Below, piece after piece: positions 1,963 to 59,950 of a DNA stretch of 64,000 nucleotides. Position 1 is the stretch's first letter; every line of letters begins with the position of its first letter. A program made the translations under genes and the position numbers. Source of the DNA: Paratrimastix pyriformis (lineage: Eukaryota; Preaxostyla; Paratrimastigidae); NCBI GenBank assembly GCA_027972325.1, contig JAPMOS010000047.1, positions 62,001-126,000 on the forward strand, in the 5' to 3' direction. The notes under the pieces were generated by a model. That model was not told the origin of the DNA, searched no databases, and worked only from the letters and a program-made list of their open reading frames with translations.

Positions 1963-2694
1963 TCAGAAGGGCAAGAAGTGGGGGAGGTGGTGGAGGGGCG
2001 CCAGAACACTCGACTTGGCCGCAGCCGGCTTGGTTGGAGCGGGCGGCCCGCGCAAACGGCCCCTTGATCGCCTTCCATCCCGCCTGGGCGAGACCCAAGG
2101 CGGACTGCAGGAGCGGCTTCCCCTGCTCAGTCTGGACCGGACCGGGGGCCGGCACCGAGGCGGCAGGGGGGGCGGAGGCAGGGCGGCGTCACCTCCCGGG
2201 CAGGCGGGGAGGCAGGCAACTTCCGTGTGGAGGTCGCCTCCGTGCGCGCAGCCTTCTTGGCCGAGGGCGAGGCGAACCCCCTTGCATCCGCGTGCTTCGG
2301 TGAGCGTGAACGGACGCGGAACGGGGAGTCTTGTTGCACCTCGTCGCCGATGAATCAGATGATGAGTGAGACCGGGAATGGACACGTCCCGGTCCCCCAC
2401 CACGTTGATGGGTACGCGTAGGAAAACATTCTGCAGCGATTCAATGATGCCCTTCAACAAGGTACTCGAAGGAAGCGCTCCAGAAGAGAAACCCAAATGC
2501 CCAAAGAGTTTGCAAAATTCATCCAGCATCGAATTCTTGAAAGTAGAAATGTGGTCAAGGTCGTGGAAGACCAGATCATCTTCCTCGGCGCGATTGAAAA
2601 ATTCAAGAAACACTTCGCGCTTGCCACATTGTGCGTGCTCTTTTAGAAAATGAACTTGAAAGTCACTAAGATGATTCTCCTCGGCAATATGCAT
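1963..2694 (-). CDS. Unknown protein of element C (retroposon protein family X)
   Basis: About 243 residues. I chose the ATG at 2694 because the upstream ATG lies in the target-site duplication. Residues 1-100 (MHIAEENHLSD, then DLDHISTFKN, CKLFGHLG, STLLKGIIESL) align by eye with the proteins at 8894-9802 and 51695-52350. Shared features are an acidic N-terminus, L-x-x-LFG, and a hydrophobic helix containing LL-x-x-I. The rest is Pro/Arg/Ser-rich. An overlapping frame (2127-2339) also looks coding in that tail, so the end may be frame-shifted. I do not recognise the family. It could be an RNA-binding or coat-like partner for LINE-driven copying, but nothing here proves that. Confidence 0.6.
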   Translation of the reverse strand: MHIAEENHLSDFQVHFLKEHAQCGKREVFLEFFNRAEEDDLVFHDLDHISTFKNSMLDEFCKLFGHLGFSSGALPSSTLLKGIIESLQNVFLRVPINVVGDRDVSIPGLTHHLIHRRRGATRLPVPRPFTLTEARGCKGVRLALGQEGCAHGGDLHTEVACLPACPGGDAALPPPPLPPRCRPPVRSRLSRGSRSCSPPWVSPRRDGRRSRGRLRGPPAPTKPAAAKSSVLAPLHHLPHFLPF

Positions 2695-2762
2695 GCACGA
2701 GGGAACAGAGCACGCAATTTGAATGTGCTGATCGGCTAGAACCCCGGGAGAACACACCAACA

Positions 2763-3296: not shown

Positions 3297-3425
3297 CCCA
3301 AACAAACCCAAACCAAGAAAGAGTGAACACTTGCACAGCAAGCACGCAAAACGGCACTGACATCCAAAAATTTTATCAAAAGAATTTGACATGTCATGTC
3401 AGTGCCGGCAGTCGACTCGTCCTTT
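3297..3425 (+). repeat. Left inverted terminal repeat of element E
   Basis: Matches the reverse complement of 11550-11678 base for base as far as I can read. It contains a 12 bp inner palindrome, CGGCACTGACAT ... ATGTCAGTGCCG, around an A/T-rich centre. This resembles the ITR core of DIRS-a (GGCACTGACC ... GTCAGCTGAC). Confidence 0.85.
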
Positions 3426-4970
3426 GCGCACTAAGCAAATCGCAACGCAATCCTTTATCCCGGAGTTCTCCATTTTCTCGGTCCTCTCGGACTCATTTTT
3501 CATAGCTTATTGGGAACTCTGAAGTCAAAGAAAACTGCATCATCATTGTCCACGGGAGCGGGGTTTGAATGATCGACCTCATCTGTTTTGACAATGTCGC
3601 TTTCAAGCTTCAACGAGCTCTGGAAAAGATCTGCGCTCTTCTTGGGAACGGTGGGCGGTGCCCTTTGGCTCACGCGCACTCGCTTCCGCGCCACTTCGGT
3701 GGTGCATTATCGCGACCTCCCGCTCATGTATCGGTTGGCACTCGGGGTTTCTTCGGGGTCCCCCCCGTAGTTATTATCCTCGTGCTTTTTCGTCGTTTGC
3801 CGGCTGAAACGGACTTGTGACCCGCTGGGTCTTGTGAGGTGATTGGAGAATGATCGGAGGCCCTGGCCTCCCACCAACCCTCTCGGGTCTGTGTTGATCC
3901 CTGGTATTTGCTCTTCCAGAAGAGACAGACGTGAAAAACTCTGTTCCTTGTTCTCAAATGAACGAAAACAAACAAAACCAGCACGAAGAAAGAACAAACA
4001 TTACCGTTTTTATACAGACTGCTTGCAGCTTTGAACGTGCTGGTTTGAACTTGGGTCCTCATTTCACACCCGAGGACACGTCTGGTGAAATGCAGTACTG
4101 TGGCTGCAGTTTTGTATTCGATTTCTTCGAACGGCTGCTCGTTTTCACGGGCGCTTCACTCCAGCGCTGCATGCGAGAAATACTCATTGCGAGGGCTCCG
4201 ATGAGGCGTCTCTTTGAGGTCTTTGATTGGTTTACCACAAAGACGACACGTTCTGGCGTAGCGCAAGTCTGTTTGGATTTGCGTTCGCCCCTCATTTGGA
4301 CCTCATTTTGAGTCTCATTCTCTGGCAGTCCTTCACCCTTTCAACCAAACGCTTCGTCTTGTGTGAGCTGGACACTGTTATTTTAGTGCGGTCTTTCAAA
4401 GCGGGTTTGCCAAGCACTGCACTCATTCTCGGACGCTCGAAATGCTCATTCTTCTTTAGTTCCGCTTCTTTCGCCCAACTCCCCTTTTTCTTGGAAAACA
4501 TGCGGGTCCCCTCTTTTCGGCGGACTATTTTGCAAAGTCTGGGTCTTGGGTCTCGCTCATTCTGGAATGCTCTCGGCTTGAAGATGACTGAAAGAAAACT
4601 CCTGCGAGTCGGGTTCGAGGGCCCTCAATAAACGGCCGGGCCACTTGAAGAAGTTTGGTCAGTCCGCACTTCACTCATAATCTCGGAATGCTCATTCTCC
4701 GACAGCTCGAAGTTCTCTCCCGCACCCGTTCGGGCGCACCTTGGGCACTCATCGGCCATGAGCGGACGACAAAGTACCGTCGGTTCGCCTTCAGGTCATT
4801 CAACTGGAAATTCTCGCAAGGGGTACATTTTTAAACCACGGTGGAACTCGGACGTGGTCTGCACAAGAGGCGGGGCATCGCCACTCACCACTCAGTTTTT
4901 GCCTTCGGTCACTGTGTTCAGCCCGAAACGCGCGCCCCGGACCCACACGGATTTGCCAGGGGTCCGTCGG

Positions 4971-8110: not shown

Positions 8111-8404
8111 TGTGAGGCTGTTCATGCCTGCATTCGCATCGACTGATGCCTTTTCCAGGCGGGCTGTGCCTCTCTGCCGGAAGCAACGGCAGCACTCGGC
8201 ACCTTTCGGGGCGACCCCGGCACATGCGGGGGACACTGTGGAGTGGGTATGTCTCACCTGTTTAATGCTCCTTCTGGTGTGCTGCCCTCCGGCACGCGCA
8301 CTCCCAACACCCGGATGGGCATGGGTAGAGTCGGCTCATCGGCCGAGAGGAGCTTGTTGTCGAGTTAAGAGGTGGGGAAAGCTATTCCTTTGGTATGGTG
8401 TTCA

Positions 8405-8511
8405 TTGTTGTTGTTGTGATACTATTTCGACTGCCAGTAACTGCGCGCAAAACACAGAAAACTGAAACAGAAGAAAATCCGTTCATCCGGTCGAAACCGG
8501 CGGGTAACATG
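8405..8511 (-). promoter_or_regulatory. Element A 3' tail: CATGTTACC box, TTCG hairpin, AGTATC, (CAA)n
   Basis: On the minus strand the box (8504-8511) is followed by the stem-loop 8487-8500 (CCGGT TTCG ACCGG). The sequence then runs to AGTATC and (CAA)n at 8405. Compared with the LINE tail and element C, the stem pairs have changed on both sides while the loop is constant. Confidence 0.75.
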
Positions 8512-8893
8512 CCGACCTACACCCCCTCAGGGGTAGGCGCACAGACGGCATGGCGGGAAAGAGAGAGACTGGAATGTCGCCAGGAAACAGAATCGTTCAA
8601 ACACTTGACAGCAAACAGAAGGAACATCAAAAGAAAGAACGGGGCAAGGGGGGGACAAAGGATCCAACACTGAGACACGGGACACGAGGAACAATGAAAG
8701 GGGGGCGAAGGAAGCAAAAGACAAGAACAGTTAGAACGAAAAATATTCCCGAACCCAGCCTGAGGGGGGGGCGGAACCCATCCACCATGACCTACCACCT
8801 CGGTAGGACAGGCGCACGGGCCCCTGAATCCACCACCCCACACACGTTGCTCCCTTCCCAAAGGCCCACGGTTGGCAACAGGCGAGAGAGAGG

Positions 8894-9802
8894 CTAATCT
8901 TCGGAGGCACGGCAGAAGCGGCATGGTCGGGCGTCGAGGTAGCACGAGCGGGCGCAGCAGGCACAGCAGACAAAGGGGACACACCAGCAGCAACAGAGGC
9001 AGCAACAGGGGCAACAACAGGGGGCAGCAACAGGGGCAGCAACAGGGGCAGCAACAGGTGCAGGTGCAGGTGCAGGTGCAGGTGCAGGTGCAGGTGCAGG
9101 TGCAGGTGCAGGTGCAGGCGCAGGCGCAAAAGCCGGAGCATGAGATGAAGTCGGAGCCGGAACAGGTGCCGGCTTGGCGAATGGGTTCGCCAAGGTGAGA
9201 GGTGCTCTTGGGGCAGCGGAAGAGGCAAATGGATTGCTCGAAGAAGGGGAACGGGCTCTCTCCTTCTTCCCCGCTGGACGATCGCCATCGATGATCGGGT
9301 GGCGAGTTCCACCTCCACCTCCAAGTTGCTTTGGACCACGGTATGTAGTCTCCCCAACAGATAGGAGGACTCGTTCTGGCGGTGTGCGGTGTTTGTCCAC
9401 AGACGAGCCGCGCGATGATTCTTGTGGCACGTGGCAGTCGAAAGTTCGCACATTCGATTGCTGGAACAATAAAGCCCCAAGAAGTTGGAAAATAAACTGG
9501 CTGATCGCTTCAGGCTGCTTCTTCGGATTGTCCTCCAGCAGCATGTGCACCGTGCGTTCGATGATCTCATAGCGTGGAGCACGGTGCTCATTGACGACCA
9601 ATGAACTGAAGAGCTTCATAAGCTCCAAACGCATCCAAGGAGAGAGCTTCAATGGAGCTGAAGAGGGGGACCACAGATGCCGACCCAACTCATCTTGAAG
9701 ATACTCTACCATAGGGTCGTCACGACTTTGGATCTCGGCGTGATCCATAATAAAGTTGGAATCGTCCTTACTGAGCTCGTCATGCTCAGTGGCGATCTCC
9801 AT
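8894..9802 (-). CDS. Unknown protein of element A (retroposon protein family X)
   Basis: 302 residues starting MEIATEHDELSKDDSNF. Residues 1-115 match the start of the protein at 51695 (MEI..E.D.L..D.SNF.M.H.EI...DDP), including a leucine-rich stretch with LMKLFS near residue 65. Around residues 160-215 both share QLGGG, a basic Ser/Lys patch and an NPF motif (SSSNPFASS, LANPFAKP), a known EH-domain ligand. The tail is an Ala-Pro repeat encoded by a hexanucleotide array, then Cys-rich residues that may be only repeat read-through. The family is not recognised. An open frame of this length over conserved blocks suggests the copy is young or recently functional. Confidence 0.7.
   Translation of the reverse strand: MEIATEHDELSKDDSNFIMDHAEIQSRDDPMVEYLQDELGRHLWSPSSAPLKLSPWMRLELMKLFSSLVVNEHRAPRYEIIERTVHMLLEDNPKKQPEAISQFIFQLLGALLFQQSNVRTFDCHVPQESSRGSSVDKHRTPPERVLLSVGETTYRGPKQLGGGGGTRHPIIDGDRPAGKKERARSPSSSNPFASSAAPRAPLTLANPFAKPAPVPAPTSSHAPAFAPAPAPAPAPAPAPAPAPAPAPAPVAAPVAAPVAAPCCCPCCCLCCCWCVPFVCCACCARSCYLDARPCRFCRASED
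9018..9127. repeat. Hexanucleotide (GCAGGT)n and 12 bp repeat in element A
   Basis: About 12 copies of GCAGGT at 9055-9127, preceded by about three copies of GGGGCAGCAACA (9018-9056). On the coding strand the hexamer encodes the Ala-Pro tail of the element A protein. Length differences here are expected between copies. Confidence 0.85.
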
Positions 9803-9873
9803 GGCCAGAAACGGGCAGAACGCGGAGCAAAGGGAACGTGCAACGCCGAGACTTCAACCGGGGGGAATTATGG

Positions 9874-9993
9874 TGTTCACTCTTTCTTGGTTTGGGTTTG
9901 TTTGGGGCTATCCCACGAAGGCTGTCCCTCGTTCTCCGAACTCGTGAAGGAGAATGGTGGGATAGCCGAGTATCTAAACAAACCCAAACCAAG
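9874..9993. repeat. Internal complementary region of element E
   Basis: 9874-9953 is the reverse complement of the left edge of element E. 9954-9993 is the reverse complement of its right edge, with no base between them. In DIRS-type elements this region lets the two termini be rebuilt from a circular intermediate. It looks like a small palindromic transposon because both edges share CTTGGTTTGGGTTTG. Confidence 0.75.
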
Positions 9994-11549
9994 ACAAGTC
10001 TCCACCCACCTCCTGCCTGATGAGTGGCACTGGGTTTGTTTGTTTCTGCTTTCCCCGCGAACTCTCGACAGCTGCACGTCAACGTGTACCCACAGACAGT
10101 GAATGATGGTGGGCATTTTGTCTTCACGGCGCTGTCTTACTACGTGCTGCCTTGGCGTTACTGTTGCCTTTTCATCCACACGATCTGATTGACAAGTCAG
10201 TTGGCCTGCCTCGTGGGAGAGGCAATGTGTGGCTGGGTTTCAAGCTTGTTAGATTCCCTTTGACAACAGTGTGGGGGGCCTTATCGGGGCCGTTTTGCCC
10301 TTAAGTCACCACCCTTCATTCGTGTGTGGGTGCGTGTGTGTGATACTTCCCGGCTTACGCGGAGTCCCCCCTTCATTCACCCTCATTCACCCTCGTCAGA
10401 TGTGATTGGGTAATCATGGTGGGGTGAGTGAGGTGTGGTTATTCACCCCAGGTACTTTGCTTGCAACTTATGGGTTATGGGTTCATCCTGCTCGTTGTGC
10501 TCTTGTAGGACACCCAGCATGCACCTTCATAGCGGTGTGGGAGTTGTCTTCCCCCTGGTCTGTTATGAATGGACAACAGCTCGAGGGACTTCATCGTGGT
10601 GTGGGGTGTTGTCTTTCACCACCGTTTTCTTGGCAACAGCCATGTGGCTTTATCGTGGTCGTGGTGGACACCATACCTCCTCCTCGTTCATATGGGGGGG
10701 TGGGGTTTTTCTTTCACTGCCGTCTGTTTTGATTTGACGACAGCTCATGTGATTTCATCGTGGTCGTTGTCCCCGTGAACCACCCCCGATCACTCCACCA
10801 CACACCTCCCTCTCGCGGGAGGGATATTGGTTGAGCACTCTGAAGTGGCGATCGATACGTCACCTTTTGTGCTCTCTCTCCCTTTGGGGTTTGGCTTTTT
10901 GGTGGGGGGCTTGTTCTTTTACAGAACTTGACGCCCACACGGCAAGGGTGCCTCCACCTCTTCATCGGCGTCGGTCGGCGACTGGTGACGAAGAGGCCGC
11001 GAGCACGGGGTCGGAGAACCCTCCTGGGATCTGCGAGGCAAGGTGCCTGTCGCGGCTCCGTCGTGCTCTGCGTTTTTCTCGACGCGTGCCTCATGCCGGA
11101 CAACGAGTCCTCTCGCTGTTTTGTCCGATCTTCTTGTTTTATGCGGGGAGTCCGACCCGTTGAGGGAAGGACTCCCTAAGGAGGGTGCCGGGTACGGGAA
11201 GACTCGGTACCTTCGGGGCCTTTGCAGGTTTCGCCCCTCCCTTTATTTGTGGCTTCTTCTCTCCCACCTGTTTTTTGCTGACCGGTTACAGCGGTGCGTC
11301 GGGGTTTTCTCCAGCCTCCTCTTTCCCTGACTAGACGTGCACCCCCCGGGGCGGGTCGCGACCCGCTTGAGGAGATGTTTGGGGTTCGCATGGTTGATCA
11401 TGAATCTCTCTTCGTCGTTTTCTTTGAAACCTTCGGGAGCTGTGACTCCCAGCTGGATTGTTTTTACTGCGTTGCGCGGTACTGACTCCCTTCCCACCGT
11501 ACTCTGCGTCGGTGGCTGGCGTGTCGTCGTCCGAATGGGCTTATGCTTA
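9994..11549. other. Right internal non-coding part of element E
   Basis: No convincing gene. Three diverged repeats of about 80-100 bp (CAACAGCTCGAGGGACTTCATCGTGGT-type, broken up by substitutions) lie near 10570-10770. A solo LINE tail piece sits at 10335-10366. The remainder is GC-rich and unremarkable. Confidence 0.55.
10335..10366 (-). repeat. Solo LINE 3' tail remnant
   Basis: Minus strand reads GACTCCGCGTAAGCCGGG, then AAGTATC, then (AC)n: the last 30 bases of the LINE 3' end seen at 20560-20598 with no LINE body attached. It is an extremely 5'-truncated LINE insertion or captured tail. Confidence 0.65.
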
Positions 11550-20519: not shown

Positions 20520-20598
20520 CTATGTTACCCGCGGGCTTCGGCCCGGTAACGGACTCGGCGTAAGCCGGGAAGTATCACACACACACACACACACACAC
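20520..20598 (+). promoter_or_regulatory. LINE-P1 3' tail: box, TTCG hairpin, AAGTATC, (CA)n
   Basis: TGTTACC, a stem-loop CGGGC-TTCG-GCCCG, then CGGACTCGGCGTAAGCCGGG (a second small stem), AAGTATC and (CA)n. Identical parts recur at 21115-21197 and at 59826-59950 (minus). It is the likely RT recognition signal and the reference for the parasite tails. Confidence 0.8.
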
Positions 20599-21168
20599 TG
20601 ATGTGGGGATTTTGATGTTTGAGAATGGGCGGGCTAGGGAGAGATTCCCGATGGATCCAGCCCCGTTGTGGGCTCTGGAGGCGATGTTGAGGAAGGAGGC
20701 CGGAAGTCGAACGGTGCAGGCGAACTATGAGGGCCGCCCGAGAGATGGGGAAACACTTTACAACTGGAGGGGGATCTCGGAGGCGGTGGTGACGAAGGTG
20801 ATGAGGAGGTTGAGAGCAAAGTGCGGCTTTAAGATGGAATATGCGAATGCATGTAGACTGGCAGCGGAAATGGGAATTGTGGATGAAGACACTCAAAAGG
20901 AGGTTGGGAGCGAGCTGGCAGGAATCAGGAAAACGATGCTCGTAGCGATTCAGCAAAGGAAGAAGTGCGAAAAATTCGAGGCTGGAATGAAAGAAGAGCC
21001 GTAGTCCGGAAGTCGGCGGTGACCGCCCCTGGAGGGACGGTAGCCGACCCATGAACTCCCTGGGGTGCTCTTTCTGCAGGACTTGTTCTGCGGGAAGGCG
21101 GCCCGGGGCGGATCATGTTACCCGCGGGCTTCGGCCCGATTCCGGACTCGGCGCAAGCCGGGAAGTAT

Positions 21169-44840: not shown

Positions 44841-46400
44841 ATGGGACCGGGAGCAGGCCAAACTGCGGCTGCTGGCACAGCACCCACCTCGGGGACCACT
44901 GGCAGGCAGGCTGGCTCGGCACCGGGAGGAGTGGTTGGCCCTCAGACCACCTCGGGAAGTGGCACAGGTGGTATCGGAAGGGTTTCACATCCCGTTCAAG
45001 GGACCCCACCCAACCCGGGGGACGTGGTCCCGGGACCCTTACCACTTGGTGGGGAGGAGAAACTGGGCTTGGAGGCGGTGGTCCAGGAGTACCTTGGGAT
45101 ATCGGCACTGAAAACGATCCAGGGGGTCGGACAAAGGGATGAGATCTCCCATTTTGGGCGGCCCAAGCCCGGCGGGAAATGGAGGTTGATCCTGGACCTC
45201 ACCGCCTTGAATCACTTCATCTTCTGCCCCTCCTTCAAAATGGAGGGTGGAAGACGGTGAGGGCCGTGGTGGAGCCCATGATGTGGGCCACCAAGATCGA
45301 CTTGAAACATGCATACTTTCACATCCCGATCTTTCCACCTCACCGGAAATACCTGGGAGTCGAATGGGAGGGCACGGAATATCGCTTCCAAGCCCTCCCA
45401 TTCGGCCTGAATGTGGCTCCCAGAATCTTTACAAAGACCATGAGAGTGGCAATCAAGGAAGCCCGGAGACACGGCATCTTGGTAGTCCACTACATCGACG
45501 ACCTCCTGGTGTTGGGCAGGTCACCACAGGAGACCAAGCTGCATACACTGGCACTCCTTCGTCACCTTCTCACTCGGGTTCGAGATCAGCTGGGACAAAA
45601 CCCAAGTGGAACCAGTTCAAATGCTGGAGTTCCTGGGGTTTGTCCTCGACACTCGAGCGATGACACTCTCACTCCCACCCGAGAAGGCACAGAAGGTGAG
45701 AGAGATGGCGCACAACACCCAACAGTGCACCACCATCAAAGCCAAATCATTGGCAGCGGTGATCGGGTTTATGTCGTCATGCAGGGAGACGATTCGCCCG
45801 GCCTGCTTGTACCTGCGCAACCTGAACATCGACCTGTCCACGGCGATCAAGGCGCAGGGGGGATGGCACGCACTGGTGACCCTTTCGGAGGAGTCACACA
45901 GGGACTTGGAGTGGTGGGAACATGCACAGTACCCCACCAGCACCCCACTTCGGACCCCACCAGCAGAGCTGATCCTGACCACGGATGCAGCCGAGATGGG
46001 CTGGGGGGCAGTGCTGAGGACTCCGGCACAGAGCATCGAGCAGGGCATCCCAGCACACGAGTTGTGGAGAGTGACGGACCTGCAGGACATCAGCTCGATA
46101 AACCCGCTCGAATTGGAAGCGGGCATCAGGTCACTCCACCTGTTCCGGGAACAGGTCACGGGCAAGTACGTACTTTGGTTCTCGGACAATTCGTCTGTCG
46201 TGTGGTCAGTCGGCAGACTCAAGTCACAGAGTCAGCAGCTCAACACCCGGTTGAGAAAACTCTGGGAGTTCTGCCAGACACACCGGATCACCCTCACCAC
46301 AGAGCACATTCACGGCACCGACAACGTGAGAGCGGACAGGCTCTCGCGGTGGGTCGACGCCGAAGATTACCAGCTCCACCCAGCCCTCTTCAGGGCGGTG
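44841..46400 (+). pseudogene. DIRS-a copy 2 reverse transcriptase and RNase H
   Basis: RT blocks KPGGKWRLILDLTALNHFI, TKIDLKHAYFHIPIF, LPFGLNVAPRIFTKTM and the YIDD box (VVHYIDDLLVLG), then FLGFVLDTRAMTLSLPPE. RNase H follows with LTTDAAEMGWGAVL, INPLELEAGI, LWFSDNSSVV and HIHGTDNVRADRLSR (Asp, Glu, Asp, final Asp). The element makes cDNA with these. Fossil with a few breaks. Confidence 0.9.
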
Positions 46401-46720
46401 GTGAAGCTCAGGACGAAGCCGACGGTGGACGCCTTTGCATCGGCGCGAAACCACCTGTGCCCACGGTTCTGGTCCTTGGTCAAGGAACCGGGAGCGGCGG
46501 GAGTGGACTTCTTCCGGCAGAACCTAGCCTCAGAAGTGCCGTGGATAAACCCACCGTTCTCGCTCATCCTCAGAGTCTTGGAACGGTTGAGGGAGCAGCG
46601 GGGGGAGGCTCTTCTCCTCACCCCGGTGTGGACATCGGCACCGTGGTGGCCAGTGATGCTGCACATGGCAGTGGCACCACCCCTGACCCTACCACGGCAG
46701 GAGAACACATTCCTGGCAGG
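46400..46720 (+). pseudogene. DIRS-a copy 2 Dam-like methyltransferase domain
   Basis: VDAFASARNHLCPRFWSL, then VDFFRQNL, VPWINPPFSLILRVLERL with NPPF, and LLTPVWTSAPWWPVML. Such Dam-like domains are a standing part of DIRS elements. The aromatic motif NPPF differs from the active NPPY and its activity is unknown. Confidence 0.75.
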
Positions 46721-47279
46721 CACGACACGCAACCTCAAGGGAATTGGGCCCCACACTGGGAGTGTTGTGTGACACAGGTGTCGGGGACCCAGTCCGGCAA
46801 GCCAGGGCACACCTCGAGTGGGGTTGGCAGACACTCACCAATCCGGATCTCACCCTCGTCCAGAAGTTCCAGGACCGACAGCTGCACCCCATGGGTCCAG
46901 CCCGGATCTTCGACGACCCGGAGGCCTTGGTGGGGAGCAACGAGCCCCTGATCCCACAGTGGGACAGGGAGCTGTAGACGTCGACGCAGACTCGGGAGAG
47001 GACATGACCTTAGCCGAGCTGGCAGCGTCTCTGCGCTCAAAGAGCACCACCACCCCCACTCCCATGACACACCACCCGGAGTCCTGTGTGACAAACCCGC
47101 CGGGTCGGTCGGAAGCACCCACGAGCGGGGCCTGTGATGCCCAGAACGCCGCGGGGACACCCGTGGACGGAACTCTGTTCCGCCCGGGCAAGAAAGGTCC
47201 TGCCCCAGGACGCGCGACACCCACACCCACAGCCCGGAAAAAGCTCTCAGATGAGGCTCCTGCTTGGGCCCCTAAGCAT

Positions 47280-48300
47280 CCGGAGCTGTCGGCAGCGGCA
47301 GGTTATTTCATTCAGAGGTCATTGGCAGAGAAAACCTCGAAGAAATACTCACACATCATTCGCCGCTATGAAGAGTGGTGCGCGCTCAAAGACCTGGCTC
47401 CGATCACGGAGGCGACCGACCAGAATGAGGTCCAGGTCGCCTCGTTCATTGCGGATGAGGCCATGGAGAGGGACCTCAGCTCGGGCTCGGCAGGGGCACG
47501 TCGCTCAGCACTGTCCATGTACTTCACCATGAGTGGCCACCCTCTATCACCGGAAGGCAAACTGGTGAAACAAGTCGTCACCGGCATCGGGAAGGACAAA
47601 CCGGCTGGGGCAAAGACCTCGGTCCGATCTGGGACCTAGCAGACCTCTTGAAATTGCTCGAGGGGGGAATGGGCTGACAATGCGACCCTTGACCAAAATC
47701 GGCTCATTGGTAAAGTCGCCAGCTTGTTGGAGATCGCGGGGTTGAGGGTCATGGACACAACCTCGATCTCTTTTCCGACTCACGCTTTGAGTTCGGCCAG
47801 CTGGGGTGAGCACTCCGGTTGAAGGTGTGTCCGAAGGAGACACACAACACCAAGATTCGATGGGTCCAGGTGGTCGGGGCTCCCGACAACCCACTGTGCC
47901 TACACTGCGCCATGAAACAGTGGCTGACCAAGCGGCCGACGGAACCAGCGGTTGCGGGTCAGGCAGTGTCGGACACCTTCTTTGTTTTTCCACGGGATAA
48001 TTCAGTGAAGTGCAGGGTGGGCAAAGCCATCTCGGCAGACTGGATCCGGAACTGCGTGCGTTCGACGATGACGGTGGCAGGCATTCCCCTGCAGTGGGGT
48101 GCCCATTCAATTCGCTCAGCCGCCCCGTCGAAAGCCGCTGCACTGGGCATTCCACTGCCACAGATTCTGACCAGGTATCGTTGGAGCTCCAGGTCCAGCA
48201 CCTACCAAATGCACTATGGTCGCACAGTGGAAGGAGTCACGGATCGCTTCGACGAGGCACTGTTGGCGGGTCGGTTCAGTGGCAAACCTCATGAAATGTC
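47280..48300 (+). pseudogene. DIRS-a copy 2 tyrosine recombinase
   Basis: N-terminal YFIQRSLAEKTSKKYSHII and SGSAGARRSALSMYFTM; C-terminal QWGAHSIRSAAPSKAAALGI (His-x-x-Arg) and RWSSRSSTYQMHYG, where the final Tyr fits the nucleophile position. Integrates the circular intermediate. Fossil with a few breaks. Confidence 0.85.
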
Positions 48301-48388
48301 GGGGCCGTTGAACCTGACAAGGGGGACCCCTAGGGGTTCCCCCTTTGGCAGGCACGAGTTGGGAGGCAGTGTGATTCCTTTGGCATGC

Positions 48389-48507
48389 TGTCTATTTTCC
48401 TGGGGGTTTGGGAAGATGAAGGTCGTCGAGATTGATTACTCGTTCGCCGAGGCTCCGAGGCTGAAGCGAGGAATCATCGAGACTCTTCTTCTCTCCCAAA
48501 CCCCCAG
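48389..48507. repeat. DIRS-a copy 2 internal complementary region
   Basis: One edge (GAAGATGAAGGTCGTCGAG ... CCGAGGCTGAAG) is joined at about 48466 to the other (CGAGGAATCATCGAGACTC). Confidence 0.9.
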
Positions 48508-48630
48508 AAATACTCCCACCCGCCTCCCTGGTGGCGTGGAGCACCACATGGCTTACAGCCCCACTGCCTCACCACCTCCTGAGCCTGCCGACACCACCTT
48601 TGCTCTTCCTGCCATTTTGAGGAGCAAAGG

Positions 48631-49131
48631 GTGGGAGGGGAGACAGGTCATGTTACCTTTCCCCCTCTGTCACAACACAACCACACTCGCCCGCACACAG
48701 CCCTCGCGCTGGACCCGGGCAAGGAACTCTCGGTCTACAACGCCAACCGGCGTCTGACCAAGCAGGGCTACGATCACCCCAAGGCCGCTACGCGCCTCTT
48801 CACTCTGGAAGATGGGTCGAGGGTGGTCGTTTCCAACACCCACCGCGGCCGCAGTGGACATTGGGTCTCGTCGCGCGGACGCGGAGGCTCTGCTGTTCGA
48901 GGCGCGACCCGAGGATGGTCTCGGGGTGCTACTCGTGGCCGTGGCCGTGGCCGTGGCCGTGGCGGCCGCAAGTTCTTTTCGGCCGCCTCTTCTGCCCGTG
49001 GCAAGAGCTCCGCTGAGGAGTCTGCTGCGGAGGGGGAAGAAGTGAATGGAAGGCACTTCGTCCCCCGGGGGTTCTTTCCTGAGGCTTCGCCCCTCTGTAT
49101 TTTTTTCCTGATTTTTTGCGTGACCTGGTAA
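48631..49131 (+). CDS. RGG-rich ORF of DIRS-a copy 2
   Basis: 166 residues, open. LALDPGKELSVYNANRRL, GYDHPKAATRLFTLEDGS and RVVVSNTHRGRSGHWVSS are the same as in copy 1 (13136-13618). Then RGRGRGRGRGG, FFSAASSARGKSSAEESAAE and a hydrophobic end PLCIFFLIFCVTW. Two copies keep the same coding content beyond the internal complementary region, which suggests it is a real element gene. Confidence 0.55.
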   Translation: MGGETGHVTFPPLSQHNHTRPHTALALDPGKELSVYNANRRLTKQGYDHPKAATRLFTLEDGSRVVVSNTHRGRSGHWVSSRGRGGSAVRGATRGWSRGATRGRGRGRGRGGRKFFSAASSARGKSSAEESAAEGEEVNGRHFVPRGFFPEASPLCIFFLIFCVTW

Positions 49132-51640: not shown

Positions 51641-51645
51641 TTTTT

Positions 51646-52350
51646 TCCCCCGGCATTGGTGTCCTTTTGAATTCAAATCCGAGCGTCCCGTTGGATGGAA
51701 ATCTGCTCGGAAAATGACGATCTTGATGGAGACGTCAGCAACTTTGTCATGATGCATGGTGAAATTGAACGCAATGATGATCCGTTTCTGCGCTTCCTGA
51801 ACCGCGACATCTCTGAAAAGCATCTCCGCTATACGGATCTGGACAGCGATTTCAAGGTGCTTACGCAAAAGATGCTTCCTGAGCTTGCGAAATTGTTTGG
51901 GTATATCACTGTTCACAAGCAGCGGGTCGTCTCCAGAGCATTGCTGAAGACGATCGTTGAAATGCTCGGCAGCCTCGAGCGAGAAATGCTCGTTTCGTCT
52001 ATGACTGACTTCTTTTTTCAAGTGCTTGGCTCTGTCACGTGGCATGCTGGACAATCGGACTTGGAGAGTATCTCATCGGAATCGTCCGAGGAGCTCCCAA
52101 TGAGTATGCGTTTTGGTGGTCCCGCAGCCTCATCCAACCGCTCTTTGAAACCGTCTGATTCGTCACGTCACACAACCTCAATGAGTGGGTGTCGGCCGAC
52201 ATCATGTATCACCACCCCACCCCGTCAATTGGGTGGAGGTCCGCCACACCCTCGCAGCCCTCCTTCTCCGAAGTCGCTCTCGGGCTCCAAGAAAGGACGG
52301 GCTGCCAACCCCTTTGAGGTCACCACTGTGCGTCCTCCTGCGGTCCCGGC
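51646..52350 (+). mobile_element. Element B: third member of the coding retroposon family, 3' part missing
   Basis: The 5' end TTCCCCCGGCATTGG resembles that of element A (TTCCCCCCGG), and the ORF 51695-52350 is homologous to those of A and C. LINE-B sequence takes over at 52351 before any CATGTTACC tail, so the 3' part was lost in a rearrangement. No duplication can be found. Confidence 0.7.
51695..52350 (+). CDS. Unknown protein of element B (retroposon protein family X), truncated
   Basis: About 218 residues before LINE sequence. MEICSENDDLDGDVSNFVMM, EIERNDDPFLRFLNRDI, LPELAKLFGYITVHKQRVV, RALLKTIVEMLG and SSMTDFFFQVLGSV align with elements A and C. The Ser-rich middle leads to PPRQLGGGPPHPR, a basic patch and AANPFEVTT, matching QLGGG and NPF in element A. 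The conserved order N-domain, QLGGG, NPF argues for a real protein family. Function not recognised. Confidence 0.7.
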
Positions 52351-54250
52351 CCCCTCCTCATCAGTGTTTGTCTGTGTTGCTTGGTGATCCTGTGCGGGCT
52401 TGCCAATTCCTCCAGTGTTGTTGGCATCCCATACCCCTGCTCCTCTTTCAGCTCCTCGCCCTCCCTGAGAATGGCCAGATCATTCCTGGACATGACCTGC
52501 AGCATCCCCGAGAGGATGCCAGGCATCTTCTCCTTTCCGTGGAGCCTTACCCACTTACCCGGGTCATCCAGCAGGGGTTCACTTGTGGTCCACAACTTCT
52601 GAAGAAGTGCAATCTCCTCACGGAGCATCACCCCACATCCTTGCTCATCCGCCACTCTCCCCAACAACTGTGTCAGCACCATCATATCATGCACATCCAC
52701 CGGGTCCTTCAGGCCCATGCCCCCTTCATCCTCCGGGAAGAAAAGCACCTCCGCCGGATCGCACTTCCCCAGACAGCCACCAATCTCCCTAAAGACCCTC
52801 GCATATCTTTGCCGTAGGATCTCCAAGTCCTTCTTTGGCATGGGGCACTGTCTGGCCGTGTACTGGAGGCACGTCGACACGCACTCGTTGATCATCTGCA
52901 CCATCAACCTCGGGGGGACCTTCTTGACCATCAGCCTGTGCAGCCTCCCGCACATTTTCTGGATAACCTTCTCCGTGTTGACCTTCATGTTCATCTCCTC
53001 GTCTATCCAAATCCCCAGGTATCGGATGGCCCCACCCTTCTGCTGGACCTTGATGCCTCGACCCTCACCCAGGTCCAGGTCCGTCTTGCTCTTCACCCCC
53101 CCACACAGGTAGTCACACTTGATACCCGCCTCCTCCACCTTCCGTCTCACTGTGTTGACCAACCGTACCATCTGCTCCTTGGTTCGAGTGACCAGCATGA
53201 CATCGTCAGCAAAGGCAAGGACTTTCACCTTCCTCCCACTATCCAGGATATACCCACCTTCCTGCTTTCGCACCTCTGCCAGCACTTCCTCCATGAATGA
53301 GATAAAGAGCAGACACGAAAGCGGGTCCCCCTGGCTGATACCCCTTTCTATGTCGTAGCTCTCTGTCAGTCCGTACCCTGTGATCACTCTCGCCTTCCTT
53401 CCCTCGTACAGACTATCTACGTACCTGATGAATGCCTCCTCAACCCCCATCCGTCTCAACCCCCTCCTCAGTGCGTCCATGTCCACCGTGTCGTATGCTT
53501 TTTTTATGTCCAATGAGCACATATGGAACTCTCGACCTCCCATAATTTTCGAGTCAGTGAGCACTCCCATAATCTCTGCGATTGGGGTCTCAATCCTCCG
53601 ACCCCTCAAGAATCCAAACTCACTTGCTTCTCTACGCACCAGTCTTGAAACCGCGACGCCACCACCACCTGCAGCCCCTTCAGAAAAACTTGGATCAAAG
53701 TGATCGGTCTCCTTCCTGCCGGGTCCCCCGGGTGCTCCGTCTGCGATTTCGTGGCCATAAACACCGAGCTAATCTTGAGCTCCTGCGGCACCTCACTCTT
53801 TTCCAGCATCTCATTATATCTCCTTCTCATCCACTCCTTGATCTCATCCTGACAGGCGTGAATCATCTCCGCCGTCACCCCGTCCGGGCCCGCTGCCTTG
53901 CCATCTGGGAGTGCTCCCAGGATCGTTTCAACGTCATGCATGGTAAGGGGCCATGATGACCCTCTCCTCCTCTTGAGACCTTCCCACCGGTGCCTGCTTC
54001 ATTCCGCCCATCGGCATCACTCTCCTTGCCAGGTCCGCCATGAATTCCCTCCATCCCTCTTCACCAATTCTGGATCTGTCACCACCTTATCCACCTTGCC
54101 TTCACCGTTCTTGGTGGCATACGCCGTGACGGGCGCCACCCCGTCAGTCATTATGCCCTTATATATCCGTTTGCGTTTTCCTCCAACGCCCTGTCCCGCT
54201 TCTTGTAGTGCATGCTTCTCATCTTTGCCAATTGGCGCTGCATCTCCTCC
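52351..54250 (-). pseudogene. LINE-B reverse transcriptase
   Basis: Fingers ALPDGKAAGPDGVTAEMIHA and RRPITLIQVFLKGL (about 53606-53945); then an open frame of more than 400 codons (52351-53639) with FLRGRRIETPIAEIMG, CSLDIKKAYDTVDMDAL, YDIERGISQGDPLSCLLF, LAFADDVMLVTRT (FADD catalytic box), QQKGGAIRYLGIWIDEEM and the thumb to EEQGYGMPTTLEEL. One frame change near 53620 separates the two parts. It makes first-strand DNA at the nicked target. Confidence 0.9.
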
Positions 54251-59825: not shown

Positions 59826-59950
59826 TGTGTGTGTGTGTGATACTTCCCGGCTTACGCCGAGTCCGTTACGTGTGTGTGTGTGTGTGTGTGTGTGATACTT
59901 CCCGGCTTACGCCGAGTCCGTTACCGGGCCGAAGCCCGCGGGTAACATAG
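59826..59950 (-). promoter_or_regulatory. LINE-C 3' tail, present one and a half times
   Basis: The full tail (59870-59950) has CATGTTACC-type start, CGGGC-TTCG-GCCCG hairpin, GCGTAAGCCGGG, AAGTATC and (AC)n. Directly after its (AC)n a second partial tail starts at GTAACGGACTCGG and again ends AAGTATC-(AC)n (59826-59869). It is either a tiny LINE insertion into (AC)n or RT slippage. Confidence 0.8.

Follow-up and report, generated by a model that had tools for sequence, protein, structure and literature searches.

A family of probable protein-coding retroposons in Paratrimastix pyriformis that shares its 3′ tail with a resident LINE

LINE parasites are usually regarded as gene-free RNAs, and most of those known carry no gene; the head of a SINE is of tRNA, 5S, or 7SL origin and contains a Pol III promoter. 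According to the parts of the papers cited here, certain SINEs and their partner LINE have a common 3′ end (PMC3747384). HAL1 (half-LINE-1) is derived from LINE-1 and carries the LINE-1 ORF1 (PMC4859970), and HeT-A of Drosophila, whose protein is Gag-like, inserts only at chromosome ends (PMC3776773). The 1.9-kb ERE2 of Entamoeba contains one orphan ORF (omega 0.49), is accompanied by duplications of 3–14 bp, and occurs in many copies; it possesses terminal inverted repeats and has been interpreted as DNA-transposon-like (PMC2657916).

Here, we describe a family of elements from the free-living metamonad Paratrimastix pyriformis. Like SINEs, these elements lack a reverse transcriptase (RT), have a 3′ end that matches that of a partner LINE, and are flanked by target-site duplications; unlike SINEs, they are coding, 1.4 kb in length, and have an ORF under purifying selection. 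They resemble HAL1 in being non-autonomous, protein-coding, and probably LINE-dependent, but nothing in the LINE matches their ORF. With HeT-A they share a single protein and the lack of an RT, whereas the protein is an orphan and the copies are found in contig interiors and inside LINEs. As in ERE2, there is one selected orphan ORF, with duplications and many copies; in contrast to ERE2, terminal inverted repeats are absent (from elements A and C, see below), and there is a LINE tail, a feature that the cited part of the ERE2 paper does not describe. The LINE/SINE pairs of Entamoeba are likewise formed by a protist LINE with short partners, which titles and abstract openings describe as SINEs without mention of coding capacity, whereas the elements presented here are coding. 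No description of the family was found in the titles and abstract openings of the literature searched, which consisted mostly of openly available papers, and the available main text of the genome paper (PMC10703272) contains no word starting with “transpos”.

The analysis started from a 64-kb stretch of DNA (the window), which belongs to an assembly of 56 Mb in 495 contigs and in which an initial annotation had pointed out three elements, A, B, and C. Element A occupies positions 8405–9868 on the minus strand, with its 5′ end at 9868 and its 3′ tail at 8405, and is enclosed by an exact 11-bp duplication at 8394–8404 (TATGGTGTTCA) and 9869–9879 (both on the plus strand). Element C, at 1482–2754 on the minus strand (5′ end at 2754, 3′ tail at 1482), is similarly enclosed by an exact 8-bp duplication at 1474–1481 (CACCAACA) and 2755–2762 (plus strand). 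It interrupts a LINE copy within the 3′ part of its long ORF, at a GKCWC stretch whose position in LINE L017 is downstream of RNase H. Element B, on the plus strand at about 51645–52355, starts with CCCCCGG and is truncated at its 3′ side, where it adjoins a LINE fragment at around 52355. A full-length twin of B, with an identical left flank, is present on contig C148 (locus L011); this copy ends in a tail and shows an 11-bp duplication by eye.

Each of the three elements contains an ORF, although none is intact in the window, as A and C are frame-broken and B is truncated. The ORF of A (302 aa, 8894–9802, minus strand) keeps the frame through the N-terminal domain and two NPF motifs, while its C-terminal part is out of frame relative to copy L005, from which it differs by a 2-bp frame-breaking gap and further indels. 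The ORF of C (243 aa, 1963–2694, minus strand) diverges from the 377-aa ORF of L042 beyond approximately residue 88, and the final part of the ORF of B (51695–52387, plus strand) runs into neighbouring sequence; in copy L039, this ORF measures 378 aa. Homology by blastp was clear between A and B (1e-18) and between B and C (1e-8), while the direct match of A to C reached only 0.07. A Pfam scan of the three ORFs returned no family, and hence no Gag-like match. The exact duplications around A and C, the absence of an RT from both, and the relatedness of B in both its ORF and its 5′ end had all been proposed in the initial annotation and are confirmed by these results. Its claim of one ORF each in A and C stands as to the presence of the ORF, but not as to its extent: the 302 and 243 aa are incomplete, as other copies encode 362 and 377 aa, respectively.

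Several other features were seen in the window. Directly beside A, at 9885–9994, lies a MITE-like structure with perfect 19-nt inverted repeat arms spaced 72 nt apart, and 17 nt of that arm recur at 3300 and 11658 (expected 0.00). The ORFs at 113–1429 and 45179–48757 appear, from their sequence, to encode a DIRS-type RT and a tyrosine recombinase.

Genome-wide searches placed A, B, and C in a family of approximately 1.4-kb elements with subfamilies A/A2, B, C, and D. In a DNA search with A, 39 of the 42 matches listed covered almost all of the element (identity 100% for A itself and 96–99% for 38 others), which is a lower bound on the copy number, as 40 of 221 candidates were scored. The high identity of the 38 other places suggests recent activity. 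When A was used for a protein search, at least 58 rows extended from residue 1 to residue 249 or beyond, and 54 of these contained no in-frame stop. Protein searches placed B and C at further genomic positions as well, and the search with B uncovered subfamily D, which is about 30% identical. Another type of tail (E) occurred twice in locus L002, beside A2-like coding sequence, and represents either a subfamily of its own or A2 with a different tail. The copies are not confined to contig ends: element A is located at 70405–71868 of a contig of 268802 bases, and another copy at 766017 of one of 1099988 bases.

Elements for which both ends could be placed by anchors numbered 26 (12 A/A2, 5 B, 4 C, 3 D, and 2 LINEs), not counting the window and four duplicate loci. 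In 20 of these, the flanks carried an exact duplication 8 bp or more in length: all 12 of A/A2, 2 of 5 B, all 4 of C, 1 of 3 D, and 1 of 2 LINEs (L028, with 12 bp). Among the 24 non-LINE elements, 19 had duplications of 8–15 bp, whereas none of 650 mixed flank pairs matched over 8 bp or more, and the longest match among them was 6. In L011 and L051, the duplications are displaced by extra bases; that of L051 measures 10 bp by eye. No exact duplication of at least 8 bp was found in L037, L052, or the LINE L017, and L049 stops at the tail and therefore falls outside this judgement. Together, the at least 39 near-full-length A places and the 19 of 24 duplications provide the widespread, full-length, duplication-flanked copies expected of the family that had been proposed.

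The fullest ORFs encode proteins of 362 aa (A, L005), 378 and 371 aa (B), 377 aa (C), and about 383–399 aa (D). All four subfamilies follow a common plan, in which an N-terminal domain (~125 aa) is followed by a linker rich in Pro and Ala and then by a Trp-rich C-terminal box (for instance, B has WGRWIRGPSKLSYRSFRCWWMGSSPP and D has FGWWIR...RWYMG). In the N-terminal domain, A, C, and D reach only 26–29% identity to B, with M1, I3, L10, F17, H21, M60, E63, and KLF 66–68 (B numbering) invariant. Basic patches are present in all four, while QLGGG and two NPF tripeptides are common to A, B, and D and missing from C. Within the ORF of A, the linker is encoded by 12-bp and 6-bp tandem repeats (9009–9134); its length differs among copies, and the gaps relative to L005, one of them frame-breaking, fall in this region.

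A single frame could be read through to the C-terminal box in 9 of the 24 elements with both ends (3 of 12 A, 3 of 5 B, 1 of 4 C, and 2 of 3 D), including A copies L003 and L010, in which part of the linker is in another frame. The D copy L048, which lacks its end, likewise reads through to the box. In the other 15 of the 24, the C-terminal half is broken; the ORF of L044, for example, is 221 aa long and has no box. As these are repeats in an assembly corrected with Nanopolish and Pilon, according to the available text of the genome paper (PMC10703272), some of the breaks may be assembly errors.

The protein could not be linked to any described fold or family. A profile search of solved structures (PDB) yielded no relative. 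For the N-terminal domain, six helices were predicted at a mean pLDDT of 62, with only residues ~54–124 fairly confident, and the best Foldseek match to this model had a meaningless E of 0.94. All homologues came from Paratrimastix (49 of 49 matches from 7998 scored candidates, and 12 of 12 from 119), so that no homologue outside Paratrimastix pyriformis was found among these candidates. The 49 relatives have been annotated as proteins and bear PAPYR_ names. A homologue search with A alone gave none, as low-complexity words probably filled its 7999 candidates.

The ORF is under purifying selection. When N-terminal codons of nine copies were compared (Nei-Gojobori), pS exceeded pN in all 36 pairs, which are non-independent and, for the deep pairs, saturated. 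For A and A2, the best-dated pair, dS was 0.50 and dN 0.12, giving a dN/dS of 0.24 (p 3.2e-07), with 12, 12, and 40 differences at the first, second, and third codon positions. The same comparison in the five other frames gave four ratios above 1 and one antisense ratio of 0.52; all five contained stops, and the true frame alone was free of stops in both sequences. The ratio within D was also 0.24, on few changes. Purifying selection, which would be expected if the elements keep a protein of their own, was thus found in the part of the copies that was compared.

The initial annotation also described the 3′ ends of the elements as LINE-like, which proved correct. The elements end in CATnTTACCC and a UUCG hairpin, followed by GTAT and a CA-rich repeat. 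In A, CATGTTACCC, the UUCG hairpin, and a closing CGG occupy 8479–8511, and the terminus, AGTATCACA with ACA repeats, 8405–8426 (both on the minus strand). In C, the hairpin is found at 1576–1600 and the terminus, AAGTATCC with a CA-rich repeat, at 1482–1516 (also on the minus strand). In its commonest form, the LINE tail starts with (C/T)ATGTTACCCGCGGGC-UUCG-GCCCG and, after four bases, CGG; a stem capped by GNAA, GGGAAGTATC, and a CA repeat follow in that order. This layout, with different stems, is also that of A, A2, B, D, and E, while C has kept the UUCG hairpin without the closing CGG pairing. Three LINE tail hairpins were found in the window: one at 59925–59949 on the minus strand, laid out as in A and C, and two on the plus strand at 20522–20540 and 21115–21133, the second of which precedes AAGTATC and a CA repeat.

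The pattern ATGTTACCCN(4-6)TTCG, which misses the B- and E-type tails (CATCTT or CATTTT), occurred five times in the window (expected 0.00) and 389 times in the genome, compared with once for the reversed control pattern. The first 100 of these 389 comprised 43 with the LINE stem, 31 with that of A, 13 with that of C, and 13 with that of D, and no other stem was seen. The tail is shared with LINE copies of several subfamilies. In an alignment of 16 tail sequences (14 distinct), 95.5% of 112 cells were paired, and 5 of 8 hairpin pairs showed compensatory changes on both sides; the covariation score was 0.310, compared with 0.100 for shuffled alignments. None of 500 shuffles reached any of these three values. 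Further pair types, of which there were 6, were reached by 31 of the 500 and are a weak measure. Kinship among the sequences can inflate the shuffle control; slid controls, in which kinship is kept, gave 0–1 compensatory pairs. The elements and the LINE thus share a 3′ signature with a similar predicted fold.

Between A and A2, identity is 88–97% in the 3′ part, 79–86% in the N-terminal part of the ORF, and 54–67% in the middle. As the 3′ parts are more alike than the ORFs, the tails of A and A2 do not count as independent evidence, and this pattern of identity suggests that tails may have been exchanged between the two. Two places on contig C53 (G000:C53:14929–16304 and 73717–75086) combine a D-like ORF (32–33% identical to B) with an A-type tail motif at the usual distance; judged by position, these are possible cases of tail exchange between subfamilies.

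The resident LINE is approximately 9.3 kb in length, as seen end to end in L017 and L028, and L027 has the same 5′ end. It encodes an ORF1 of 342 aa without a Pfam match and a long ORF (2296 aa in L017) with an RT (1.3e-31), an RNase H (4.1e-18), and a weak endonuclease match below the cut-off (E 4.9e-4). In the window, its RT region lies at 52320–53570 on the minus strand (Pfam RVT_1, 3.4e-21). Upstream of the endonuclease, the long ORF of L017 (1581–8468, minus strand) also shows a weak match to UCH (ubiquitin carboxyl-terminal hydrolase; Pfam, E 0.0039, below the cut-off); it would be unusual for a LINE to carry a protease-like domain. A single sub-threshold mir-200 match in the same locus (Rfam) was taken as chance.

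Two LINE-associated arrangements stood out. In L002, a LINE tail and CA repeat are directly followed by 5′-truncated A2-like coding sequence at two places (973–1491 and 3895–4389), possibly by template jumping or tandem duplication; the E-type tails, at 270 and 3147, are near these joins. At the 3′ end of the LINE in L034 (oriented ~9363), the first tail is followed by one further copy of its final stretch and the CA repeat, which resembles a restart of the enzyme.

If the elements were fragments of a longer, autonomous version, their ORF should be found together with an RT. No such version was found in 20 LINE loci. When 203 hand-picked ORF places (rows from the A, B, and C searches that reach the N-terminus) were compared with 78 of 105 RT matches, also hand-picked and mostly starting early in the query, 13 pairs had the ORF upstream of an RT (at 8 RT places), 11 had it downstream on the same strand, and 13 on the opposite strand. 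In this set, the ORF is therefore not clearly commoner upstream of a LINE RT. Two ORF places, C18:4850 and C455:19491, lie 4.9–5.7 kb upstream of an RT; judged by position, single ORF–RT fusions are possible there.

We consider it likely, at a probability of roughly 0.7, that A, B, and C are diverged, gene-carrying retroposons without an RT that are copied in trans by the resident 9.3-kb LINE. A shared tail would also be expected of internal-deletion derivatives of the LINE that, like HAL1, kept ORF1 and lost the RT part, and the 5′ starts are indeed similar (LINE CCCGGGGTCG, C CCCGGGGTTC). However, neither the 342-aa ORF1 nor the 2296-aa ORF of L017 matched any of the 24 elements (tblastn, E 1e-3), which disfavours such an origin. 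A profile of the element N-terminal domain found nothing in 17 of the 20 LINE loci, and the matches in the other three (L022, L033, and L035) are separate element copies; of all 20, only L017, L027, and L028 reach the LINE 5′ end. The tblastn matches of A and C in LINE bodies fall outside the N-terminal domain and look compositional, and we regard this origin as improbable. The helper could also be another, unsampled LINE or RT of this genome: the element stems differ from the LINE stem, so that an unseen second LINE could serve, and the RT search scored 100 of 831 candidates. On the other hand, every one of the first 100 tail motifs bears a LINE or element stem, and the two-part tail with its CA repeat is that of the 9.3-kb LINE, making a different helper unlikely.

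Purifying selection and the annotation of 49 relatives as PAPYR_ proteins would equally fit a multi-copy host gene or retrogene family that is spread by the LINE and selected for the host. Against this, the copies end in a LINE-type tail and have no poly(A), the near-full-length A places number at least 39 and duplications flank the copies, and no homologue was found in other organisms among the candidates scored, which leaves a host gene quite improbable. As for DNA-transposon-like elements with an unknown transposase, ERE2 likewise combines one orphan ORF under purifying selection with variable-length duplications, as far as the cited part of its description goes (PMC2657916). The polar structure of the present elements, with a microsatellite 3′ tail shared with the LINE, argues against this explanation, and a transposon with terminal inverted repeats is disfavoured by their absence from the ends of A and C, the two elements inspected; we consider it very improbable.

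Membership in the class of LINEs, as autonomous non-LTR elements, does not apply to elements that have no RT by Pfam and no match to the LINE proteins. Neither are they SINEs in the non-coding sense, given a conserved ORF under purifying selection. ARAGORN detected no tRNA in 7 loci, and Rfam gave no match in five element loci at E 0.1. The 3′ end shared with a LINE and the variable-length duplications are those of LINE-dependent retroposons. Since the elements show SINE-like 3′ mimicry but are coding, with an ORF that is not LINE-derived, are not restricted to chromosome ends, and showed no inverted repeats in A or C, we classify them as LINE-dependent retroposons. The duplications, the selected ORF, and the shared tail all support the coding family of LINE parasites suggested by the initial annotation, and from these sequence features we infer that copying is carried out by the LINE enzyme.

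Under the mechanism we propose, an element would be transcribed from its CCCCGG 5′ end and its ORF translated. The LINE RT would take the 3′ end of the transcript (CATnTTACCC, the UUCG hairpin, a second stem, GTAT, and the CA-rich repeat) for LINE RNA, and target-primed reverse transcription by the predicted endonuclease/RT of the LINE would insert a copy with a duplication of about 8–15 bp. The protein would be retained by selection. More speculatively, it might play an ORF1-like role, probably coating or chaperoning its own RNA and thereby favouring the RNAs of translated elements, as help to its own RNA is the easiest account of selection on the protein of a non-autonomous element. Alternatively, the protein may help in trans within the cell line, or bring a benefit unrelated to copying.

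As a broader and tentative reading, which we find possible though somewhat doubtful, the elements may be “coding SINEs”: long-lived LINE parasites with their own RNA-packaging protein, unrelated to the proteins of any LINE, that borrow the LINE RT through a mimicked, co-evolving tail. If this reading holds, the RNA would first prove its translation and then borrow the RT. Labour would thus be divided: an ORF1-like partner would come with the parasite, and only the RT would be stolen.

The family kept its gene while its subfamilies diverged to below 30% identity in the N-terminal domain, which indicates that something besides the RT is worth carrying. The elements offer a natural system for testing which requirements of a LINE RNA go beyond the RT, and for testing cis-preference. 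Their tails, which vary with compensatory changes, also make up a ready collection of variants for studying how a LINE reads its 3′ end.
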